Source: Pedobacter cryophilus
GTDB lineage: Bacteria; Bacteroidota; Bacteroidia; Sphingobacteriales; Sphingobacteriaceae
Assembly: GCF_005116455.1 (NCBI RefSeq)
Contig: NZ_SWBP01000001.1
Location: 248,001 to 312,000 of the forward strand
DNA: 64,000 nucleotides
Direction: 5' to 3'
Translations under genes and position numbers: made by a program
Shown here: positions 35,786 through 39,623 of the stretch, piece by piece
Position numbering within the stretch: position 1 is the stretch's first letter
How the letters are laid out: every line of letters starts with the position of its first letter
The notes under the pieces: model-generated
Told to the model about the DNA's origin: nothing
The model's input: the letters and a program-made list of their open reading frames with translations, nothing else
The model's database searches: none

Positions 35786-35814
35786 CAAGATATAAGTATC
35801 AAGATGCAAGACAA
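35786..35814 (+). repeat. heptamer repeat covering the argE start
   Basis: Units AAGATAT, AAGTATC, AAGATGC, AAGACAA run in 7-nt register. The third unit supplies the ATG of argE and the next codons. Related in style to the heptamers before argG. Confidence 0.4.
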
Positions 35815-36871
35815 AAATACGCTATATGAAAATGCAGTTGAGCTTTTAAAAAACCTCATCTCCACCCCTTCTCTAAGTAAGGAAGAAGAGGGAACATTTA
35901 ACATTTTATGCAATTTTTTTAAGCAAAATGAGATTCCATGCCATACCAAAGGCTTTAACATTTGGGCTTATAACAAGCATTTCGATAGCAAAAAACCAAC
36001 AATTCTTTTAAACTCTCATCATGATACCGTAAAGCCAAACAAAAGCTATAGCCGAGATCCTTTTGCTCCTGATGAAGAAAATGGTAAATTATTTGGCTTA
36101 GGAAGTAATGATGCTGGCGGTTGTTTGGTTTCATTAATTGCTGCTTTTCTTCATTTTTATCCTCAAGAAAATCTTAAATATAATATAGCGGTAGCAACAA
36201 CCGCCGAGGAAGAAAACTCGGGGAAAGGCGGTATAGAATCTATCCTTCCTGATTTAGGGAAATTAGATTTCGCCCTAGTTGGCGAGCCTACTTTAATGGA
36301 TTTGGCTATTGCCGAGAAAGGCTTACTGGTTTTAGATTGCTTAGTAAAAGGAAAATCTGGTCATGCTGCCCGAAATGAAGGCGACAATGCCATTTACAAA
36401 GCGCTACAAGATATAGAATGGTTTCAAAATTATCAGTTTACTAAAGTTTCTGAAACTTTAGGCCCAATAAAAATGACGGTGACTATGATTAACGCTGGCA
36501 GTTTGCATAATGTAGTGCCAGACCAATGTTTGTTTACGGTAGATGTTAGGATAACTGATGCTTATAATAATGAAGATGTTTTAAAAATCATTCGATCTTT
36601 TGTGAGTTGTGAAGTAACGCCAAGGTCAGTAAGATTGAAGCCTTCCTCCATCCCAAAAGAGCATCCAATTGTACAAGCCGGATTAGCCTTGGGTAGAACA
36701 ACTTATGGCTCGCCAACCACCTCAGACCAAGCTTTATTAAATATTCCATCTTTAAAATGTGGCCCTGGAGATTCCGCTAGGTCGCATACAGCAGATGAAT
36801 TTATTTATTTAAAAGAAATTGAAGAAGGAATAGAAGGATATATTAAAATGATTGAGAGGGTGGTAATTTAG
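35804..36871 (+). CDS. argE: N-acylornithine/N-acylcitrulline deacylase (M20 peptidase family)
   Basis: 355 residues of the M20 zinc-peptidase fold: metal ligands in NSHHDTVKP (H72-H73-D74), GSNDAGG, catalytic Glu pair in TTAEEENSG, then GEPT and the dimerisation domain with SGHAARNEGDNAIYKA. It removes the acyl group late in the linear pathway; in the ArgF' route the physiological substrate is N-acylcitrulline, likely N-succinylcitrulline here. ATG 35804 lies within a heptamer repeat; no other start fits better. Confidence 0.88.
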   Translation: MQDKNTLYENAVELLKNLISTPSLSKEEEGTFNILCNFFKQNEIPCHTKGFNIWAYNKHFDSKKPTILLNSHHDTVKPNKSYSRDPFAPDEENGKLFGLGSNDAGGCLVSLIAAFLHFYPQENLKYNIAVATTAEEENSGKGGIESILPDLGKLDFALVGEPTLMDLAIAEKGLLVLDCLVKGKSGHAARNEGDNAIYKALQDIEWFQNYQFTKVSETLGPIKMTVTMINAGSLHNVVPDQCLFTVDVRITDAYNNEDVLKIIRSFVSCEVTPRSVRLKPSSIPKEHPIVQAGLALGRTTYGSPTTSDQALLNIPSLKCGPGDSARSHTADEFIYLKEIEEGIEGYIKMIERVVI

Positions 36872-36884
36872 GATTTGGGCAATT

Positions 36885-36903
36885 CCCTGATGAAAAATCA
36901 GGG
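36885..36903 (+). repeat. small hairpin repeat after argE
   Basis: CCCTGAT-gaaaa-ATCAGGG, followed by TCGGGCTTTGC. It is not followed by a U run, so it is probably a repeat fragment, not a terminator. Confidence 0.4.
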
Positions 36904-36953
36904 TCGGGCTTTGCAAAAAAACCTGTTCAAAACGAACAAATTATTCAAAATTC

Positions 36954-37046
36954 ATATGTCGATTCAATCGACATATAATTATAACGTGTCGATTTTTTTG
37001 ATTATTTTCGACATATCAATTCCTTATGTCGATTCAATCGACATAT
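36954..37046. repeat. upstream triad of palindromes flanking the Fic gene
   Basis: Two near-perfect 21-bp palindromes (TATGTCGATT, one base, AATCGACATA) at 36955-36975 and 37025-37045 bracket a looser one (TGTCGA ... TCGACA, T-rich centre) at 36987-37013. Centres are at 36965, 37000 and 37035, exactly 35 bp apart. The Fic start codon lies 17 bp after the third. The downstream triad at 38168-38260 has the same order and spacing. Confidence 0.95.
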
Positions 37047-37061
37047 ACAAAATCAAAAAAA

Positions 37062-38156
37062 ATGAAGAGTTTTGATAGAAATAAACCTTTTAATAGCATT
37101 GCAAATTTACCTCCAAAAGTAAATTTAGAAAGCGTAGAAATACTAAAAGCGAGTATTGAGGCGAACAAACTATTAGCAGAATTAAAAGGATATTGCCAAA
37201 CACTTCCAAATCCAAATTTATTGCTAAACACCATTGTGCTGCAAGAAAGTAAGGAATCTAGCGCTATAGAAAACATTGTTACCACACAAGATGAGCTTTA
37301 TCAAGAAACGTTAAGAATATCTGAAAACATAAAAAATGCATCTGCTAAAGAAGTAATTCAATACCGCGAGGCCATGTATTGGGGTTTACATGAAATGCAA
37401 AAGAACGGGTTAATCACCACCAATTTGTTAGTTGGCATTATGCAGCGATTAAGAAATACTAATGAAAACATCAGAAACACACCCGGAACAAAATTAGCAA
37501 ACCCAAGCAATCAACAAATTGTATATACTCCGCCTGAGGGAGAAAACATCATTAGAGAAAAGCTAAAAGAACTAGAACAATTTATGAATGATGATGAATT
37601 TTCTGGTTTAGATGGCTTAGTAAAAATGGCGCTCATACATTATCAATTTGAAGCTATACATCCTTTTTCTGATGGAAATGGCAGAACCGGAAGAATCTTA
37701 AATGTTTTATACCTCATTAATCAAAATTTAATTGGCTTACCAGTTTTATACTTAAGCTATTACATTATCCAAAATAAATCTGATTATTATAGATTATTAA
37801 GAGAAGTTACAGAAAAAGGTAATTGGGCAGAGTGGGTACTTTTTATTGTAAAAGGCGTAGGTGAAACAGCAGCATTAACCTTACAAAAAATCAACGCAAT
37901 CTTACAACTAAAAGCAAATTCTGAAGAGAAGATAAGAGCGGCGTTAAAGGCCTCCTACTCTAGAGAATTATGTGATTTATTGTATAGTTATCCTTATATC
38001 AAAATAAAAATTTTAGAAGAGAATAATATTGCAAAAAGGCAAACAGCTTCAGAATATCTTAAAAAATTATCAAAAGCTGGCTTGTTAGAGGCGGTTAAAA
38101 TTGGGCAAGAAATGTATTACATCAATAAAGGATTGATGGAAATTTTAGTGAAATAA
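37062..38156 (+). CDS. Fic family protein (class II, self-inhibited AMP-transferase type) with C-terminal winged helix
   Basis: 364 residues from ATG 37062. N-terminal Fic_N region; inhibitory motif S66-S-A-I-E70-N71, which in class II Fic proteins places Glu against the ATP site; intact catalytic H200-PFSDGNGRTGR; C-terminal part (about 290-364) reads like a winged helix (NIAKRQTASEYLKKLSKAGLL). Such proteins transfer AMP to target hydroxyls. The ATG at 37026 falls inside a palindrome and is rejected. It sits alone between argE and argH, flanked by matching palindrome triads, which suggests a self-contained cassette. Targets unknown; DNA binding of its C-terminus to the palindromes is a hypothesis. 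Confidence 0.9.
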   Translation: MKSFDRNKPFNSIANLPPKVNLESVEILKASIEANKLLAELKGYCQTLPNPNLLLNTIVLQESKESSAIENIVTTQDELYQETLRISENIKNASAKEVIQYREAMYWGLHEMQKNGLITTNLLVGIMQRLRNTNENIRNTPGTKLANPSNQQIVYTPPEGENIIREKLKELEQFMNDDEFSGLDGLVKMALIHYQFEAIHPFSDGNGRTGRILNVLYLINQNLIGLPVLYLSYYIIQNKSDYYRLLREVTEKGNWAEWVLFIVKGVGETAALTLQKINAILQLKANSEEKIRAALKASYSRELCDLLYSYPYIKIKILEENNIAKRQTASEYLKKLSKAGLLEAVKIGQEMYYINKGLMEILVK

Positions 38157-38167
38157 TTAAAAAGCAT

Positions 38168-38260
38168 ATATGTCGATTGAATCGACATATCTAAAACATA
38201 TGTCGATTTTTTTTAATTTTTTCGACATACAAAATTCTTATGTCGATTCAATCGACATAC
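38168..38260. repeat. downstream triad of palindromes flanking the Fic gene
   Basis: Palindromes at 38169-38189, 38199-38229 (T-rich centre) and 38239-38259 share the TATGTCGA...TCGACATA arms. Centres at 38179, 38214 and 38249 are exactly 35 bp apart, repeating the upstream triad in the same order. The triad starts 12 bp after the Fic stop and ends 32 bp before the argH ATG, so it could also influence argH. Confidence 0.95.
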
Positions 38261-38291
38261 ATATTTATATTTAAAACAATAGTAAATCAAA

Positions 38292-39623
38292 ATGAAACTT
38301 TGGCAAAAAGAAACATCAACTAACAATTTGGTAGAACAATTTACTGTTGGACAGGATAGAGAAATGGATTTACATTTAGCCGCATTTGATGTATTAGGTT
38401 CATTAGCTCATACTCAAATGCTAGAAAGCATTGGATTAATGAGTGCTGATGATTTAGTTCAAATACAAAAAGAGCTTAAAAATATTTACCAAAGTATTCA
38501 AAAAGGAGAATTTGTAATTGAGGAAGGTGTAGAAGATGTACACTCTCAAGTAGAAATGCTTTTGACTAAGAAACTAGGCGAAGCCGGAAAAAAAATACAT
38601 AGTGGCCGTTCTCGTAACGACCAGGTTTTGGTGGACTTAAAACTTTTTTTTAGAAGTCAGATTGCAGAAATGGTGACTTCTGTAAACGAATTATTTGAAC
38701 TGCTCATTCAACTTGCTGAAACTCATAAAGGCAAATTAATGCCTGGCTATACGCATTTGCAAATTGCTATGCCATCATCTTTTGGTTTATGGTTTGGCGC
38801 TTACGCCGAAAGCCTAATTGATGATTTAGAGTTGATGTTGGCCGCTTATAAAATTTGCAATAAAAACCCTTTAGGTTCTGCTGCAGGATATGGTTCTTCG
38901 TTTCCGCTAAACAGAACCATGACAACTCAATTATTAGGTTTCGAATACCTGAATTACAACGTAGTTTATGCGCAGATGGGACGTGGAAAAACCGAAAGAA
39001 TATTAGCTCAGGCAATGTCATCCATCGCGGCAACGCTCAATAAAATGGCGATGGATGCCTGTTTATTTATGAATCAGAATTTTGGTTTTATTTCTTTTCC
39101 TGATGAATTAACTACTGGTAGTAGCATTATGCCACATAAGAAAAACCCTGATGTTTGGGAACTAATTAGAGGCAGAAGCAATCAATTACAAGCTTTACCA
39201 AACCAAATCATGATGTTGACTACTAATCTACCATCAGGCTATCACAGAGATATGCAATTACAAAAGGAAACGCTTTTTCCTGCTTTCCAAAGTTTAATGG
39301 CTTGTTTGGATATGTCTAAATTGATGTTGCAAAACATCAAAATTAAAGACAATATTTTAGACGATCCTAAATATCAATACCTTTTTTCAGTAGAAGAAGT
39401 CAATAACTTAGTCTTAGCCGGAACACCTTTCAGAGAAGCGTATAAAAAAGTAGGTGCGGATATTGAAGCTGGAAATTTTGGTGGTAAATATGAAATTAAC
39501 CATACTCATGAAGGTAGCATTGGCAATTTGAATTTGCCTGAAGTGAAGGAAATGATGGAGAAAATTTTGGGTGAGTTTGAATTTGAGAAAGTGGAGAGGG
39601 CGATTAAAAAATTGGTCTCTTAA
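38292..39623 (+). CDS. argH: argininosuccinate lyase
   Basis: 443 residues of the fumarase/aspartase superfamily with the signature GSSIMPHKKNPD near residues 275-287 and the N-terminal HSGRSRNDQV substrate loop. It splits argininosuccinate into arginine and fumarate, completing the pathway. It is the last gene of the cluster, separated from argE by the Fic cassette, and followed by a good terminator at 39675-39703. Confidence 0.95.
   Translation: MKLWQKETSTNNLVEQFTVGQDREMDLHLAAFDVLGSLAHTQMLESIGLMSADDLVQIQKELKNIYQSIQKGEFVIEEGVEDVHSQVEMLLTKKLGEAGKKIHSGRSRNDQVLVDLKLFFRSQIAEMVTSVNELFELLIQLAETHKGKLMPGYTHLQIAMPSSFGLWFGAYAESLIDDLELMLAAYKICNKNPLGSAAGYGSSFPLNRTMTTQLLGFEYLNYNVVYAQMGRGKTERILAQAMSSIAATLNKMAMDACLFMNQNFGFISFPDELTTGSSIMPHKKNPDVWELIRGRSNQLQALPNQIMMLTTNLPSGYHRDMQLQKETLFPAFQSLMACLDMSKLMLQNIKIKDNILDDPKYQYLFSVEEVNNLVLAGTPFREAYKKVGADIEAGNFGGKYEINHTHEGSIGNLNLPEVKEMMEKILGEFEFEKVERAIKKLVS

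Follow-up and report, generated by a model that had tools for sequence, protein, structure and literature searches.

Palindrome arrays on both sides of a SoFic-type fic gene in Pedobacter cryophilus are probable operators of the Fic protein they flank

The described systems closest to this work are Fic proteins that carry their own DNA-binding domain. CccR of Yersinia pseudotuberculosis is a class II Fic protein with a C-terminal DNA-binding domain that represses its own promoter via an inverted repeat (PMC9755527), CbFic2 of Coxiella burnetii is a class II Fic protein whose C-terminal helix-turn-helix (HTH) domain binds DNA, which its authors propose switches the enzyme to a deAMPylating dimer (PMC10628234), and for HTH domains in Fic fusions the Fido paper suggested a possible role in controlling the expression of fic (PMC2686095). 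SoFic of E. coli H397 is reported to be toxic, dimeric and anti-phage, and the same source regards as unclear what keeps this single-protein abortive-infection system harmless as long as cells are uninfected (PMC12249575); DNA binding by SoFic was undemonstrated as of 2023 (PMC10628234). Here we describe a SoFic-type fic gene in a 64,000-nucleotide stretch of Pedobacter cryophilus DNA (contig NZ_SWBP01000001.1, positions 248,001 to 312,000; hereafter the window), flanked by two palindrome triads which most probably serve as operator arrays for the product of the gene they enclose.

Six TGTCGA palindromes flank the gene as two triads, in the order short-long-short on each side, with the core forms TGTCGA-N5-TCGACA (short) and TGTCGA-N15-TCGACA (long). 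The centres lie at 36965/37000/37035 upstream and 38179/38214/38249 downstream, and an exact pattern search confirmed the same arms, the same order and the 35/35-bp spacing on both sides that the original prediction had reported. The short form has four matches in the window and none in 100 dinucleotide shuffles, and TGTCGA-N4..16-TCGACA has six matches in the whole 3.99-Mb genome, all at this locus (one for a reversed control pattern). The two triads form a 92-bp direct repeat, 83% identical. The upstream array ends 18 bp 5' of the fic ATG, the downstream array starts 14 bp past the stop codon and ends 34 bp 5' of the argH ATG, and the window's open reading frames (ORFs) place only fic between the arrays, with no recombinase or transposase inside the unit. 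The features are as follows.

36957..36973, no strand: upstream array, short palindrome 1, half-sites 11 bp apart centre to centre
36987..37013, no strand: upstream array, long palindrome, half-sites 21 bp apart, A/T-rich spacer
37027..37043, no strand: upstream array, short palindrome 2, 18 bp before the ATG
37062..38156, plus strand: SoFic-type class II Fic AMP-transferase gene, 364 amino acids (aa)
37257..37274, plus strand: inhibitory motif SSAIEN, N-terminal, residues 66-71
37659..37685, plus strand: catalytic FIC motif HPFSDGNGR, residues 200-208
37914..38132, plus strand: C-terminal winged-helix domain, SoFic-like_C, residues 285-357
38037..38075, plus strand: recognition helix, residues 326-338 (R326 Q327 T328); residues 327 and 328 change together with half-site bases 4-6
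38171..38187, no strand: downstream array, short palindrome 1, 14 bp past the stop codon
38201..38227, no strand: downstream array, long palindrome
38241..38257, no strand: downstream array, short palindrome 2

The gene lies between argE (35804-36871) and argH (38292-39623), and the claim that a complete class II fic gene splits the two was borne out: the 364-aa protein (37062-38156) has the domains Fic_N, Fic and SoFic-like_C, both the catalytic HPFSDGNGR and the inhibitory SSAIEN motif are intact, and as the inhibitory motif is placed N-terminally the protein belongs to class II. It scores 368 bits with the PADLOC SoFic model, and its 426.5 bits over residues 4-363 miss the 550-bit NCBIfam equivalog cut-off (NF046030); the protein is a SoFic family member by its domains, not an equivalog by that cut-off. 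An AlphaFold2 model (mean pLDDT 86.9, 36 sequences) predicts a C-terminal winged helix with helices at residues 301-307, 315-320 and 326-338 and a wing at 343-354, residues 326-338 being the third helix of the domain, and among PDB entries the model matches 3zcn and 3eqx best, the Shewanella SoFic fold.

The array architecture is common to SoFic genes of several phyla, and it lies near the gene at preferred distances. Our scan was motif-free, in that the geometry was assumed (an alternating chain of short and long units) and the letters were not; 124 of 414 flanks of 209 distinct SoFic loci hold a 35/36-bp alternating chain against 0.7 expected from shuffles (244 loci considered; 35 dropped: 16 with no hit, 10 duplicates, 5 broken, 4 partial), and in a first geometry-only scan 60 of 216 flanks of 108 SoFic loci passed against 0.6 shuffled flanks. 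Arrays occur at 113 of the 209 loci, 77 upstream only, 25 downstream only and 11 on both sides. A scan of the step at 172 loci gave 35 bp on 90 flanks and 36 bp on 15, with 0-4 flanks for each other step from 27 to 44 bp. Loci fetched by array pattern (L116-L145) were excluded from the step scan, the 209-locus scan, the helix-code analyses (the lower-threshold one included) and the co-change analysis, and included in the identity-graded locus comparison (e.g. L116), with 14 of them appearing in one further locus table; L146-L160, protein-search loci from ten genomes chosen for holding arrays, were retained in the counts. With S for short and L for long, the unit orders are SLS, LS, LSL, SL and longer alternations to six units; the consensus of the TGTCGA-class half-site is A-[CT]-[AG]-TGTCGA, and the inner spacer of the long unit is A/T-rich. 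By record title the array-bearing hosts include Bacteroidota, Campylobacterota, Acidobacteria, Armatimonadetes and Proteobacteria, many of them metagenome-assembled genomes, and both E. coli SoFic loci fetched carry an LSLSL array (five palindromes) finishing at the ATG. The commonest distances from array to start codon are 8, -1 and 1 bp before it (11, 11 and 6 flanks), and 13 downstream chains start exactly 2 bp past the stop codon, the commonest downstream distance. A different layout, equal palindromes 41 or 42 bp apart, was found at 13 of 90 loci lacking a 35-bp array (shuffles gave at most 2 for any layout); these are L015, L020, L023, L025, L081, L201, L208, L226, L227, L228, L234, L239 and L248.

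What ties the arrays to Fic is the match between half-site and recognition helix. Among the 113 array loci, TGTCGA accompanies 54 of the 55 helices that have R326-Q327-T328 and no R331, and 6 of the 58 other helices. The RKTA helix has TGTCCA half-sites in 4 of 4 (L047, L065, L097, L282), RN(T/V/I)A helices have TGCAC(A/C/T) in 3 of 3 (RNTA-TGCACA, RNVA-TGCACC and RNIA-TGCACT; L219, L288, L289), RQAA with R331 has TGTCGC in 3 of 3 (L084, L108, L256), and PKTVG-type helices go with AGGGTA-type sites. Co-change was scored by simple parsimony, with branches weighted equally, over 305 variable protein columns on a quick maximum-likelihood tree of residues 1-285 only, the winged helix being left out. 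Residue 327 best tracks base 5 (7 of 10 base changes share a branch with a residue change, P 7e-9; the next column reaches 1e-3) and base 4 (4 of 5 changes shared, P 1.6e-5; next column 1.4e-3), whilst residue 328 best tracks base 6 (5 of 10 changes shared, P 1.3e-5; next column 6e-4). Five of nine listed genomes with at least two SoFic loci have two array-bearing ones, and the half-sites differ in 5 of 5. Because the half-sites change together with the recognition helix, we read the arrays as operators of Fic itself, and on these sequence grounds the Fic protein very probably binds its own flanking motifs.

In the mechanism we propose, the C-terminal winged helix would read A-[CT]-[AG]-TGTCGA half-sites, spaced alternately by 11 bp (one helical turn) and 21 bp (two) in palindromes stepped by 35 bp, and a Fic multimer could cooperatively coat the array beside the start codon and repress its own gene. 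Autorepression of fic by its product is likely, and would keep the toxin scarce. The downstream array may act on the same fic gene, by looping to the upstream array or by holding the toxin on the DNA.

Several observations, given here and with the rival explanations below, weigh against reading the arrays as Fic operators. No 35/36-bp array was found at 96 of the 209 loci. Corrected for multiple testing (305 columns x 3 bases), the two weaker co-change P values become about 0.01; when K327 is the only residue state set against base 5, just 2 changes are shared (P 0.04); and strict independent-pairs tests on well supported branches yield just 2-5 pairs, with which no significance is reachable, though their direction agrees. 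The code has exceptions (L051, L062, L103, L254, L255, L258, L281): sites are mixed in L051, and TGTCGA is retained in L062 and L281 (RQAA without R331) and in L103, L254, L255 and L258 (RETA or similar). At a lower threshold, the RKT helices of L016, L018 and L086 have CACGTT, GTGGGT and TGGGTA.

Arrays also occur without a Fic nearby. A Fic-blind scan of 395 genomes of the phylum (TGTCGA dyad pattern, at most 2 mismatches, one array per genome examined) found the pattern in 27 genomes and a reversed control in 0. At the array, 17 of these have an intact SoFic, 5 a SoFic remnant (four by tblastn; L122 by eye alone, from C-terminal codons), 1 another Fic and 4 none within 1.5 kb (L124, L128, L139, L140, which have no Fic trace near the array); in the same 395 genomes the pattern is present in 19 of 74 SoFic genomes vs. 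8 of 321 others (Fisher 1e-9). The original prediction had itself raised the case that triads are equally common without Fic. The outcome was mixed: four genomes have none near the array and viral contigs carry bare dyads, whilst 22 of the 27 array genomes have a SoFic or its remnant and one has another Fic. In L128, one of these four, a complete triad separates metH from a HAD-phosphatase gene (both named by eye), and at L142:1501-2653 a TGTCGA dyad lies at the end of a Fic gene from a different subfamily (~31% to SoFic, 103 residues).

The exact dyad is present in 28 IMG/VR contigs; a wrong-spacing dyad (gap +4 bp), a TGACGA control and the AGGGTA and TGTCCA dyads of two other SoFic classes are present in 0. 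A relaxed dyad is present in 62 contigs (the 28 exact included) and its wrong-spacing control in 0. All but one of the 62 carry a bare short-long dyad with no Fic in the stretch examined (1.2-15 kb of contigs up to 171 kb, with a Fic further off possible), L306 being the sole contig with a SoFic there, and no third palindrome unit was seen in the other 61 contigs. By shared neighbour proteins within 2.5 kb the 62 contigs form 26 groups, and the 61 with no Fic in that stretch (within L298-L359) comprise 25 groups sharing no neighbour protein and 48 distinct arrays. Neighbours of the viral dyads (10 proteins, seven contigs) include a major head protein, head closure, terminase, helicase and virion proteins; five such proteins compared with named phages gave no match for two, <30% identity among the matches listed for two, and up to 63% for one terminase, and two named phage regions held no array by exact pattern. 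An array-blind fetch of the relatives of one neighbour gene found the dyad (at least 18 of 24) in 21 of 58 distinct upstream regions against 1.0 for a wrong-step control, 12 of the 21 being contigs already known by pattern.

The bare arrays, in viral contigs and in the four bacterial genomes with no adjacent Fic, speak for a regulator other than Fic that binds the arrays and controls fic. We consider such a regulator very unlikely: among 305 columns it is two Fic recognition-helix residues that best predict the half-site, half-sites differ in each of the five genomes with two array-bearing SoFic loci, and the layout is the same from Bacteroidota to E. coli. The viral sites also bear on a more speculative and, in our view, doubtful idea, drawn by analogy with what is proposed for DNA-bound CbFic2, that the array is the toxin's antidote: SoFic docked on it would be safe (non-AMPylating or deAMPylating), and would be freed when a phage destroys or titrates host DNA. 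This would explain arrays on either side of the gene where there is no promoter to control, and bare viral dyads would then be decoys that keep SoFic docked. Decoys are consistent with the wrong-spacing and wrong-half-site controls, which found none, and are argued against by the lack of dyads of two other SoFic classes, by the RNA-like covariation of the inner half-sites in the best sampled phage lineage, and by the 37 of 58 upstream regions of that lineage's relatives without a dyad. The viral dyads may be SoFic decoys, SoFic-like transcription terminators or sites of another protein.

Another reading is that the palindromes work at the level of the fic and arg transcripts, as RNA hairpins or terminators. 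The inverted repeats adjoin stop codons, the long units are T-rich, and in the largest dyad-carrying phage lineage covariation of the pair across the 13-bp gap resembles that of an RNA stem: several of the 21 phage dyads show paired changes across the central gap, and the inner half-site pair behaves like an RNA stem in this lineage, the signal being weak in other lineages. At L362-L429 the dyad stands just 5' of a 349-aa gene, in either orientation, several then followed by a T run. An Rfam scan of six phage loci gave two tRNAs in one locus and nothing else. In the SoFic arrays, flanking bases of the long units pair slightly above expectation (0.71/0.63/0.60 vs. 0.61/0.55/0.56), and gap pairs are slightly above it at bases 4-6; these are points in favour of hairpins. 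Yet the mismatches of these arrays have no G.U bias (GT fraction 0.47 in short units, 0.47 in long units, 0.51 in gaps), the flanking bases of short units and the gap pairs show no pairing above expectation, all half-sites share one consensus, the 35-bp phasing is constant, and the consensus follows two protein residues. Since there is no G.U excess and the short-unit flanks lack excess pairing, we read the SoFic arrays as DNA sites. Hairpins are a very improbable account of the palindromes, not favoured by the pairing test for the bacterial arrays, and may hold for one phage lineage.

Comparison with close relatives bears on whether the unit moves. Five genomes in the genus (G000, G001, G003, G005 and G011, one of them the window's own) have this Fic at 84-100% identity. 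The gene follows argE in 5 of 5, with argH next only in G000 and G005; in G001, G003 and G011 argH is located elsewhere and a different gene follows fic, convergent in G001 and G003. Each of the ten flanks retains three or more units scoring at least 10 of 12 matches; step or unit type has changed in the arrays of L008 (downstream), L009 (upstream) and L010 (upstream). Pairwise differences within this clade are 0.15-0.18 per half-site base, a value inflated by register changes, 0.30-0.37 per spacer base and 0.64 at fic fourfold sites. Further out the arrays shrink: at 73-74% Fic identity (L037, L116) the downstream triad is the only array found, at 60% (L038, L039) there is a two-unit array per side, and at 51-58% (L040-L042) a single upstream palindrome, by eye. 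The prospect that relatives with the same Fic lack the triads, noted when the locus was first described, was not realised at 84-100% identity, where three units are kept on each side in 5 of 5, and was realised in part through the reduced arrays at 51-74%. In a separate observation, G000 has a second SoFic gene (L034, G000:C1:870304-871404) with a different helix, SRTTLTKYF, and a different half-site, TGTTCA.

A self-contained mobile cassette, with the triads as ends recognised for excision or insertion, is suggested by the matching 92-bp repeats and by the argE-argH junction of other relatives. In G014, which has no fic at the junction, the aligned argE-argH gap is 57 bp, and in G002, G007 and G012 the gap (window 36872-38291) holds other sequence with small ORFs, by eye; because fic is absent in the one and other ORFs are present in the three, the gap appears to accept insertions. 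By eye these ORFs are of a four-helix-bundle type and an ORF6N type (L161, L162, L168 and L172 compared). The comparison of this junction, which the original prediction had called for, also gave the same site after argE in all five clade genomes, with argH following in two, and the arg genes and fic have diverged to a similar degree, so the fic gene with its arrays looks vertically inherited in this clade. Moreover, nothing but fic lies between the arrays, 102 of 113 loci have an array on one side alone, and the half-sites vary with the recognition helix of Fic rather than with a recombinase from outside. No near-identical array-fic-array units were seen at differing positions in close strains with clean empty sites, strain-level genomes lying outside the search. 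We therefore dropped the mobile cassette, which is exceedingly improbable, as close relatives offer no differing insertion sites. Of the two interpretations first offered for this locus, the autoregulated unit read by the C-terminal winged helix is supported by co-change and family-wide geometry, and the mobile one is not, the place being kept in 5 of 5 with only fic inside.

The arrays as operators of Fic leave the downstream triad to be explained, as downstream arrays fit plain promoter repression poorly. It might instead be an operator for the next gene, argH here and restriction genes elsewhere. The downstream array ends 34 bp before the argH ATG, and among six downstream-only loci (10 neighbouring proteins scanned) four have a type I or III restriction-modification context, with the array between fic and a hsdS, hsdR, hsdR or methylase gene: hsdM-fic-array-hsdS in L047, TIR-fic-array-hsdR in L050, hsdS-fic-array-hsdR in L101 and res-fic-array-methylase in L037. 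In L055 fic follows an integrase, and the neighbours in L056 gave no family. Against an operator for the next gene, the array is kept in G001, G003 and G011 though argH is elsewhere, with a convergent follower in G001 and G003, and of 23 downstream-only loci, 4 are followed within 450 bp by a convergent ORF and 10 by no ORF at all; both points weaken the case for an argH operator, and we consider control of the next gene unlikely. Since both arrays are kept while the next gene changes, we assign the downstream array to fic, not argH. A gene is packed tightly 5' of fic at 9 of 23 downstream-only loci vs. 4 of 86 with an upstream array (Fisher 8e-5), and because these nine lack upstream room and the array persists when the neighbour changes, it may act on fic. 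That it holds the toxin on DNA is plausible because the authors of CbFic2 propose that DNA binding shifts their enzyme to deAMPylation.

The arrays offer an answer to how SoFic is kept harmless that is testable at the level of a single residue and a single base, indicate where an operator may be sought in SoFic genomes, E. coli included, and raise the question of why viral contigs carry the same kind of site. Searches of the open-access literature listed no paper on operators of SoFic, on arrays flanking its gene or on a recognition code (subscription papers, and those behind the entries named SoFic, PDB 9tb0/9tc4/9tch/9tcl, were outside this scope), and a word search of PMC3667792 and PMC12894286 gave nothing on SoFic operators. 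The H397 locus was not found, and we draw no conclusion on the E. coli antitoxin AS1. In the portions of the open-access literature covered, what is already known is thus Fic autorepression, through CccR, whilst for the array architecture and the residue-base code no paper was found.

Compared with known systems, the window protein is closest to SoFic (E. coli H397; Shewanella oneidensis SO_4266; PDB 3eqx, 3zcn), which it matches in domain order and fold at 41-47% identity, below the NF046030 equivalog cut-off. It resembles CccR in having a winged helix and palindromes at its own predicted promoter region. However, the CccR operator is AGATAATCAT-N26-ATGATAATCT, one pair of 10-mers 26 bp apart, whereas the window has a different motif in an alternating 35-bp array; CccR is moreover a secreted effector and, as we read the DUF4172 label in PMC10628234, belongs to a different Fic subfamily from SoFic. 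CbFic2 differs in its DUF4172 N-terminal domain and host histone target, and its DNA binding was measured on random DNA, its specific site being not known in that account (PMC10628234). The likeness extends to toxin-antitoxin autoregulation of the Phd/Doc kind, in which a toxin gene is likewise controlled via operators by its own complex; unlike Phd/Doc, the window unites toxin, inhibitory helix and DNA-binding domain in one chain, and SoFic genes have their arrays on one side or on both.
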